NCBI GenBank assembly: GCA_024276995.1
Contig: JAJRWB010000077.1
Span: forward strand, 1-59,280
DNA from: Candidatus Eiseniibacteriota bacterium
GTDB taxonomy: Bacteria > Orphanbacterota > Orphanbacteria > Orphanbacterales > Orphanbacteraceae
Length of the DNA stretch: 59,280 nucleotides
Reading direction: 5' to 3'
The first letter of the stretch is position 1. The number at the start of each line of letters is the position of its first letter. Made by a program: the position numbers and the translations under genes. The notes beneath the pieces are model-generated. The model worked only from the letters and a program-made list of their open reading frames with translations. It did not search any database and was not told the origin of the DNA. Positions 47,546-50,710 of the stretch are shown one piece after another.

Positions 47546-47579
47546 GAGCCGATTGAACCGCAAGGAAGGGGGCGTTCGG

Positions 47580-49472
47580 ATGGGCTGCCTGATCCGTGCG
47601 CTCCCTTTTCTTCTTCTACCGAACATCGGCCCGGCCGCGGCGGCGGACACCGCCGATTCCTACGTCGACTCCCTTGTCGAGCGGGCGGCCGCGGAGGGTC
47701 TTTCCCGCGATCCCTACTGGCGCACCCTCCTTCATTACAAGGGGGGAATCTTCGGCGTGAAAAGCCTTATCGATGATCGTCGTTTCTTCCTTTCCCCCGG
47801 GGGAAACGATGATCCCGAAGAAGAGATGGAAGCGACGATCCGCGGTTTCTTCACACCCCTCGAAGAGGGCGTGCGACATCCGGTCTGCCGGTTCGCCGCC
47901 CGGTTCGCGTGGCTAAAGGAGAGACTCGACATCGACGAGAGCCGCCTTCCCGTCCCCCGGTGCGACGCCTACGATACGCTGATCGATCAGATCGCCCCCG
48001 AATCGATCACCCTCATCTTTCCGACGTCCCACATGAACTCTCCCGCCTCGATGTACGGTCATACGCTTCTCACGATCCGGGGGGGCGATGGGAGCGATCT
48101 CCTTTCATACGCGGTGAACTACGCCGCCGTCACCGACGAAACGTTCGGACCGCTCTACATCGTCAAGGGACTCTTCGGTCTATACAGCGGCTTCTTCTCG
48201 ATCCTCCCGTACTACGCGAAACTTCAGGAATATAGCGATGTGAACGATCGCGACATCTGGGAGTACCCGATCGACCTTTCGCCGGAGGAGATCGACCGTC
48301 TCATGAGACACATCTACGAACTCCAGGACATCTCGTCGGACTACTATTTCTTCAGCGAAAACTGTTCGTACGATCTCCTGTTTCTACTCGATGCGGCACG
48401 GCCGGGACTCGACCTGACCGATCGCTGCGGCTGGTGGGTGATCCCCCTCGACACGGTGCGGCTCATCCGCCGGAGTGGCCTCGCATCGAAGGCGGTGTTC
48501 AGACCGTCGAAGTCGACGAAGATCCGCCATCTCGCGTCGCTCTTGTCGCACCGTGAAAAGAAGCTGGCGAGAAGCGTCGCTCTGGGCGAGAAGGAAGTCT
48601 CCGCGATCACCGGGGTGCTCGAGCCGACGGAGGTGAAGGCGGTGATCGCCGACCTCGCCGGGGAGTATCTCCAGTACCGGTATGCGAAGAAGGAAATGCC
48701 GAAAGAGGAATACGCAGGACGATTCCTCGCGGTGCTGAAGGCACGGAGCGAGCTGGGAGGCGCGGACTCGGAGCGCACGCCGATCCGCCCCCCGCCCCGG
48801 CCCGACGCCGGACATAAGTCGAACCGGATCAGTATCGGGCACGGCTTCGCCGAGGATCGGCCCTTCGAGGAGATCCGCCTTCGCCCGGCGTATCATTCTC
48901 TCGTGGACAACTCCGCCGGCTACAAGGAAGGCTCTCAGATCGTCTTCCTCGACATGGCGCTCCGCTACCGAACGATCGAGAAGAAGCTGGAGATCGAGCG
49001 TGTCGATCTGATCGACATCATCTCCCTCGCGCCGCGGGATCTCTTCTTCCAACAGACATCGTGGAAGGTGAGCACCGGTTTTCTCCACCGGACGATGAAG
49101 GACGGGAAGAGGCGGATGGTCTATAGGCTCAACTCCGGTTTCGGATACGCCTGGAAGACGCGCTTCACGGGAATCTGGTACTTCATGGTCGAATCGGATC
49201 TCAACGTCGGCGCCGTGCTCGACCACGGGTACTCCTTCGGCGGCGGGGGGAGCAGCGGCATGCTGCGGAGCATCGGGAGACGCTGGAGGCTCCACGTCTA
49301 CGCGCGCGACGTGTACCACGGCGCGGGCGACACCGACAACCTCTTCACGGCGGTGCTCGAACAGAACTTCGAAATCAGCGCGAACACGAGCGTCGCCGTC
49401 GAACTGAAGACCTCGGGCGAACGGGATCGGTGGGAACAGGAAGGGACGCTGAGATGGAATACGTTTTTCTGA
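47580..49472 (+). CDS. DUF4105 (Lnb-type N-terminal periplasmic domain) protein with C-terminal barrel-like region
   Basis: A 630-residue exported protein. After the signal peptide and a helical region, the DUF4105 domain shows FPTSHMNSPASMYGHTLLTIRGG, GLFGLYSGFFSILPYY, REWEYP-type DRDIWEYPIDL, and YYFFSENCSYDLLFLLDAARP. The His and Cys in these blocks resemble a papain-like or NlpC/P60-like catalytic pair. The last ~200 residues are strand-rich with aromatic ends (FFQQTSWKVSTGF, TLRWNTFF), suggesting an outer-membrane barrel. I chose ATG 47580, with GGAAGGGGG upstream; a TTG at 47553 is the longer option. Function is unknown; membership in the lacto-N-biosidase/Lnb-like group does not show activity. 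Confidence 0.85.
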   Translation: MGCLIRALPFLLLPNIGPAAAADTADSYVDSLVERAAAEGLSRDPYWRTLLHYKGGIFGVKSLIDDRRFFLSPGGNDDPEEEMEATIRGFFTPLEEGVRHPVCRFAARFAWLKERLDIDESRLPVPRCDAYDTLIDQIAPESITLIFPTSHMNSPASMYGHTLLTIRGGDGSDLLSYAVNYAAVTDETFGPLYIVKGLFGLYSGFFSILPYYAKLQEYSDVNDRDIWEYPIDLSPEEIDRLMRHIYELQDISSDYYFFSENCSYDLLFLLDAARPGLDLTDRCGWWVIPLDTVRLIRRSGLASKAVFRPSKSTKIRHLASLLSHREKKLARSVALGEKEVSAITGVLEPTEVKAVIADLAGEYLQYRYAKKEMPKEEYAGRFLAVLKARSELGGADSERTPIRPPPRPDAGHKSNRISIGHGFAEDRPFEEIRLRPAYHSLVDNSAGYKEGSQIVFLDMALRYRTIEKKLEIERVDLIDIISLAPRDLFFQQTSWKVSTGFLHRTMKDGKRRMVYRLNSGFGYAWKTRFTGIWYFMVESDLNVGAVLDHGYSFGGGGSSGMLRSIGRRWRLHVYARDVYHGAGDTDNLFTAVLEQNFEISANTSVAVELKTSGERDRWEQEGTLRWNTFF

Positions 49473-50093: not shown

Positions 50094-50117
50094 CCCCGCC
50101 CTCATGCGAGGGCGGGG
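50094..50117. terminator. Bidirectional terminator hairpin
   Basis: A perfect 10-bp stem, CCCCGCCCTC (50094-50103) and GAGGGCGGGG (50108-50117), with an ATGC loop. On minus it is followed by TTT. It separates the convergent lipoprotein and peroxiredoxin genes. Confidence 0.75.
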
Positions 50118-50173: not shown

Positions 50174-50641
50174 TCAGACGAGCGATTTCACCTTTTCAAG
50201 AAGCTCCATCGGCTGGCGGGCGCCGTCGGGCCCGACCGACTCCGACCAGAGAACTTTCCCTTCCTTGTCGATGAGCACCGTCGCGCGGTCCGAGATGCCC
50301 GCGTCTTCGAGCCAGAGACCATACTTCTTCGCCACTTCGCCCTTGGGGTGGAAATCGGCCATCAGGGGGAAATTGATCCCGCTGAATCCGGCGGACCACG
50401 CCCGGTGGCAGAACTTCGAGTCCACGCTGAGTCCCAGGACCTGGGTCTCCACCGCGTCGAACTGCTCGAGAAGAGCGTTCAGACCCGGTATCTCGATGCT
50501 TCAGGTGGGGGTGAAATCGAGAGGATACGATACGAGAAGCACATTCTTCGAACCGCGAAAATCGGACAGCGACACCATCTCGTCCTTGTGGGTGTCGAGC
50601 TTGAAGTCCGGTGCCGTGGCTCCGGCAGCGATCAACGCCAT
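50174..50641 (-). CDS. Selenocysteine-containing peroxiredoxin (in-frame UGA at codon 47)
   Basis: A thiol-peroxidase-fold protein of 155 residues if UGA is read as selenocysteine. The N-terminal part, GATAPDFKLDTHKDEMVSLSDFRG then VLLVSYPLDFTPT, leads to TGA (50501-50503) exactly where Cys-type relatives have their peroxidatic cysteine (FTPxCxxEIPG). The frame then continues with SIEIPGLNALLEQF, VLGLSVDSKFCHRAW, and the end of the family. A second Cys (SKFCHRAW) could act as the resolving residue. The ATG at 50641 has GGAGG eight bases upstream, and a strong promoter lies beyond it. Conventional calling would keep only residues 64-155. A stop mutation of a Cys codon is the alternative. Confidence 0.85.
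50464..50499 (-). promoter_or_regulatory. Candidate bacterial SECIS element
   Basis: Just after the UGA the minus strand can fold. TCGAGA pairs with TCTCGA, extended by GC/GC with a bulged A. An inner CG/CG pair closes an apical loop GGTCTGAA. The GGTCTG begins 16 bases after the UGA; in E. coli fdhF mRNA an identical GGUCUG begins 19 bases after it. Bacterial SelB recognises a G-U in such a loop. The bases also encode the conserved Gly-Leu, so part of the match may be coincidental. Confidence 0.6.
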
Positions 50642-50710
50642 GAAAACTACCTCCGATTCAAAAGTTGCAAGGAACCGCGTGCGGCCGTGGACACGGCCGC
50701 GACCACCCGA

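Follow-up and report, generated by a model that had tools for sequence, protein, structure and literature searches.

An AhpE-like peroxiredoxin gene with an in-frame UGA at the peroxidatic codon: a probable selenoprotein from a thinly sampled bacterial phylum

Introduction

Peroxiredoxins with selenocysteine (Sec) are known from both environmental and genomic surveys, including a Sargasso Sea set with 43 Sec-peroxiredoxin genes (PMC1088965) and a 2006 survey of bacteria with 12 (PMC1794560), and their motif has been given as PxxxTxxU (PMC13188914). The published rule for the bacterial SECIS element (bSECIS) describes an apical loop of 3-9 bases that has a G at one of its first two positions and lies at a distance of 16-37 bases from the UGA, and a subset of selenoprotein genes lies outside this rule (PMC13188914).

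Here we describe a peroxiredoxin gene, prx(Sec), from a contig stretch of 59,280 nucleotides (the window), and compare it with homologues across bacteria and archaea, the window's phylum being represented by only seven genomes. The gene very probably encodes a Sec-containing, AhpE-like one-Sec peroxiredoxin in which UGA-47 is decoded as Sec, a reading to which we give a probability of roughly 0.95 on comparative sequence evidence.

Results and discussion

A peroxiredoxin frame with a single internal UGA

A first-pass annotation, made from the DNA letters alone, described a complete 155-residue peroxiredoxin frame with a single TGA at codon 47. Translation bears this out, with a start at ATG 50641, a terminal stop at TGA 50176-50174 and just one internal TGA, as does the match of the read-through product to the Pfam AhpC-TSA family (PF00578; 5e-34, residues 7-132). 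The features of the locus are as follows.

50641..50174, minus strand: prx(Sec), AhpE-like peroxiredoxin gene of 155 residues, with UGA-47 taken as selenocysteine and the stop TGA included
50503-50501, minus strand: TGA codon 47 at the peroxidatic position, in the motif P-L-D-F-T-P-T-U (PxxxTxxU)
50650..50654, minus strand: Shine-Dalgarno GGAGG, 8 bases 5' of the prx(Sec) ATG
50740-50711, minus strand: sigma-70-like promoter TTGACC-18-TATATT, a consensus match only
50094..50111, minus strand: terminator-like hairpin 3' of prx(Sec), with a count of 1 versus 0.9 in shuffles and so not above them

The ribosome binding site that had been claimed for the long frame was located, as was a candidate for the promoter. 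The GAGG of the former is kept in all four close orthologues described below, and the number of promoter-like matches upstream of the gene was 1 versus 0.1 expected. Without read-through, the remaining open frame would comprise 92 residues from GTG 50452 and would miss the catalytic part. The neighbours of prx(Sec) were not found around the four orthologues and therefore provide no operon argument for the gene. A DUF7840/Lnb_N-type protein gene lies next but one to prx(Sec), at 47553-49472 on the plus strand.

Conservation of the UGA and selection on both sides of it

A homologue search in which each bacterial and archaeal species was represented by one genome returned four close orthologues of the window protein (L054-L057; 77-79% identity), each from a separately assembled genome. 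Two of these genomes are MAGs with the label Krumholzibacteriota, a third carries the label Acidobacteriota and the fourth is unclassified. Codon 47 is TGA in all four orthologues, and nine further homologues at 36-48% identity have TGA at this column. Across the whole column, TGA occurs in 14 homologues (window included) and TGC or TGT in 79, the latter including many near-identical Streptomyces genes. A search of a plasmid collection returned no close relative. The first-pass annotation had placed codon 47 on the catalytic cysteine of relatives and proposed an alignment with Cys-containing homologues as a check; the in-frame UGA indeed sits on their Cys column, and phmmer places it on the peroxidatic Cys of Mycobacterium tuberculosis AhpE (FTGIC / FTPT-U). 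In a tree built without column 47, the window protein and its four orthologues form one clade (support 100/99), and the distribution of Sec and Cys calls for at least five switches, two of them forced by well-supported branches.

The window's genome (G000; 3.76 Mb, 96% complete) is a draft assembly of 81 contigs with a frameshift in selA, and a random nonsense TGA in a Cys peroxiredoxin gene, arising by pseudogenisation or sequencing error, would be in keeping with such a draft. However, four separately assembled genomes share this TGA at the identical codon, which means that it is not a read error, and only 7 other codons of the gene lie one step from TGA; the claim that its placement goes beyond chance thus holds. 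In addition, identity between the window protein and its orthologues is equally high before the TGA (78-83%) and behind it (75-80%), and downstream of the TGA dN is 0.10-0.23 against a dS of 0.57-1.58 (all pairs among the five orthologues), from which it follows that the second part is selected as protein. As judged from these alignments, purifying selection is equally strong on either side of UGA-47, and a chance TGA or pseudogene is untenable, with a probability that we consider very low.

Selenocysteine machinery

The first-pass annotation had singled out selB and selC as the genes on which its reading depended. The window's genome contains selA, selB, tRNA-Sec (selC) and selD, with selA frameshifted: tRNA-Sec scored 71 bits (ARAGORN call SeC tca), selB 359 bits versus a cut-off of 242, selD, which contains a single in-frame TGA, 380 bits, and selA 410 bits in two frames. 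The TGA of selD (C49:5158-6081; L020) lies inside a GU-AAK motif (AKAGU-AAKHP), which would make this protein a second selenoprotein. The six other AhpC-TSA matches in the window's genome contain no in-frame stop.

Among the orthologues, tRNA-Sec and selB are present in three of the four genomes (those of L054, L056 and L057), and the genome of L055 yielded only selA and a partial selB below the cut-off. tRNA-Sec and selB are both absent from the two Cys-type control genomes (L060 and L025). These genes also bear on a reading of UGA as Cys, Trp or Gly through a code change or suppression. Catalysis needs a Cys-like residue, and a UGA-decoding tRNA for Cys would serve too; against this, UGA terminates the same prx(Sec) frame, and the genome has selB, selD and a canonical tRNA-Sec with anticodon tca, leaving such a reading highly improbable.

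The break in selA (C12:38616-39982; L017) consists of one frameshift near C12:39040-39056. It allows a scenario in which prx(Sec) is a selenoprotein gene by descent and Sec decoding is decaying, so that mostly a 46-residue fragment is made, given that selA is intact in relatives where it was found (in one frame in four relatives of the window's family and in the genomes of L054-L057). Yet the two halves of the split gene are conserved to a similar degree (identity to L128 of 58% for the C-terminal and 63% for the N-terminal half), and a mistake in the draft contig is the simpler explanation of the split. Because the C-terminal half has not decayed and the selA genes of relatives are intact, the frameshift is probably an assembly error, though this is not proven; if it were real, Sec synthesis would be impaired. 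We therefore regard decaying decoding as unlikely, if somewhat less so than the two alternatives above. The conserved TGA, the selection and the Sec machinery instead support the selenoprotein reading of the first-pass annotation.

A candidate SECIS hairpin behind the UGA

A consensus hairpin was predicted by RNAalifold from the five close orthologues.

50452..50488, minus strand: candidate SECIS hairpin, CCG.GUC-(bulged U)-GAAC ... GUUC-GAC.CGG

Pairing begins 13 bases behind the UGA, at the 13th base. Covariation support among the five orthologues is weak, with a two-sided change in just one pair. A separate test gave stronger support: under synonymous-codon randomisation, the 14 Sec genes had a mean folding z of -1.99 (window -3.04) versus -0.56 for 29 thinned Cys homologues (Mann-Whitney p 2e-4, the related rows not being fully independent). 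Only this control separated the two groups, as plain minimum free energies were similar (Sec -20.7 versus Cys -19.1), and the window alone gave a folding z of -1.44 versus dinucleotide shuffles. Codons 48-56 are 85% identical at synonymous comparisons versus 55% gene-wide, a value reached by 0.0025 of random codon sets.

The predicted stem shifts by a few bases between the 14 Sec genes, and in most of the hairpins predicted for them one base, as a rule U, is left unpaired at position 22 or 23, where the U of UGA is position 1. The hairpin of E. coli fdhF has a bulged U17 that is needed by SelB, which we take as a lead only. Four of the five close orthologues fall outside the published bSECIS rule, and the window fits it only with a 14-base loop; an Rfam search of the region returned nothing convincing. 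The stem-loop that had been noted close behind the UGA is thus borne out for the Sec genes as a group under synonymous randomisation, but its description as an fdhF-like SECIS has to be revised, as GGTCTG lies in the 5' arm, together with the bulged U, rather than in the loop, and the classical loop rule does not hold. We infer that the hairpin acts as a SECIS. More tentatively, and with rather less than even confidence, the window's lineage, the Krumholzibacteriota and the Acidobacteriota-labelled MAG may share an AhpE-like one-Sec clade with a non-classical SECIS that has a bulged U and a loop not opening with G.

Fold, active site and proposed mechanism

The nearest solved sequences found by phmmer are M. 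tuberculosis AhpE (about 1e-28). Structure prediction with AlphaFold2 gave a pLDDT of 34.7 from the single sequence and 94.1 from a ten-sequence alignment, and the best PDB matches of the predicted fold are AhpE structures (TM 0.93, rmsd 1.5-1.6). P40, T44 and R119 are invariant, and the protein has the domain, the PxxxTxx(C/U) motif and the catalytic Arg of a peroxiredoxin. It is AhpE-like in its closest solved fold and in having neither a C-terminal 1-cysPrx_C domain nor a conserved resolving Cys. Cys78, the sole Cys of the window protein, was considered as a resolving residue and rejected, being Thr or Ser in L055 and L057. Because Cys78 is not conserved, a one-Sec mechanism with an external reductant seems most likely.

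In the mechanism we propose, UGA-47 would be decoded by SelB carrying Sec-tRNA-Sec, directed by the hairpin just behind the codon. By analogy with the family, the Sec47 selenolate, held by the PxxxT loop and Arg119, would attack the peroxide and turn into a selenenic acid, to be reduced by an external thiol; Sec insertion, peroxidase activity and the reductant are thus all part of the prediction.

Significance

Gene callers that treat UGA as stop alone would cut or miss prx(Sec), and its analysis documents Sec decoding, at the sequence level, in a thinly sampled bacterial phylum. A Sec counterpart of the well-studied 1-Cys AhpE would offer a way to compare catalysis by Sec with that by Cys, and the hairpin, if it is a non-classical SECIS, would help to broaden SECIS models.

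Comparison with known peroxiredoxins

The closest described relative is the 1-Cys peroxiredoxin AhpE of M. tuberculosis (Rv2238c), which shares the fold (TM 0.93, 35% identity), length and catalytic position of the window protein. Both have PxxxTxx(C/U) and the Arg, with no obligate resolving Cys. In contrast, AhpE has Cys where the window protein would have Sec, and the mycobacterial genes fall in another clade of the tree.

PrxU (NCBIfam NF040737; Eubacterium acidaminophilum) shares with the window protein Sec at the peroxidatic position, the AhpC-TSA domain and the TxxU motif. Assignment of the window protein to PrxU was rejected, with a score of 85 bits versus a cut-off of 270. In two genomes from the family to which the window belongs, G002 (C11:5772-6461; L132) and G006 (C126:7179-7871; L133), true PrxU with one TGA is encoded by a gene of its own, and no gene scored above the cut-off in the window's genome. 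Two further peroxiredoxin matches (G003 C30:20692-21231 and G006 C112:2237-2776) contain one in-frame TAG each, which may be the terminal stop inside the alignment.

The TxxU peroxiredoxin selenoproteins of earlier surveys (PMC1088965, PMC1794560, PMC13188914), filed under COG1225 or PF00578 and set beside the window protein by description only, share TxxU or PxxxTxxU and the replacement of Cys by Sec. Sec-peroxiredoxins with TxxU are therefore a known family, to which the window protein adds a member from a thinly sampled lineage, on an AhpE-like branch that is separate from PrxU.
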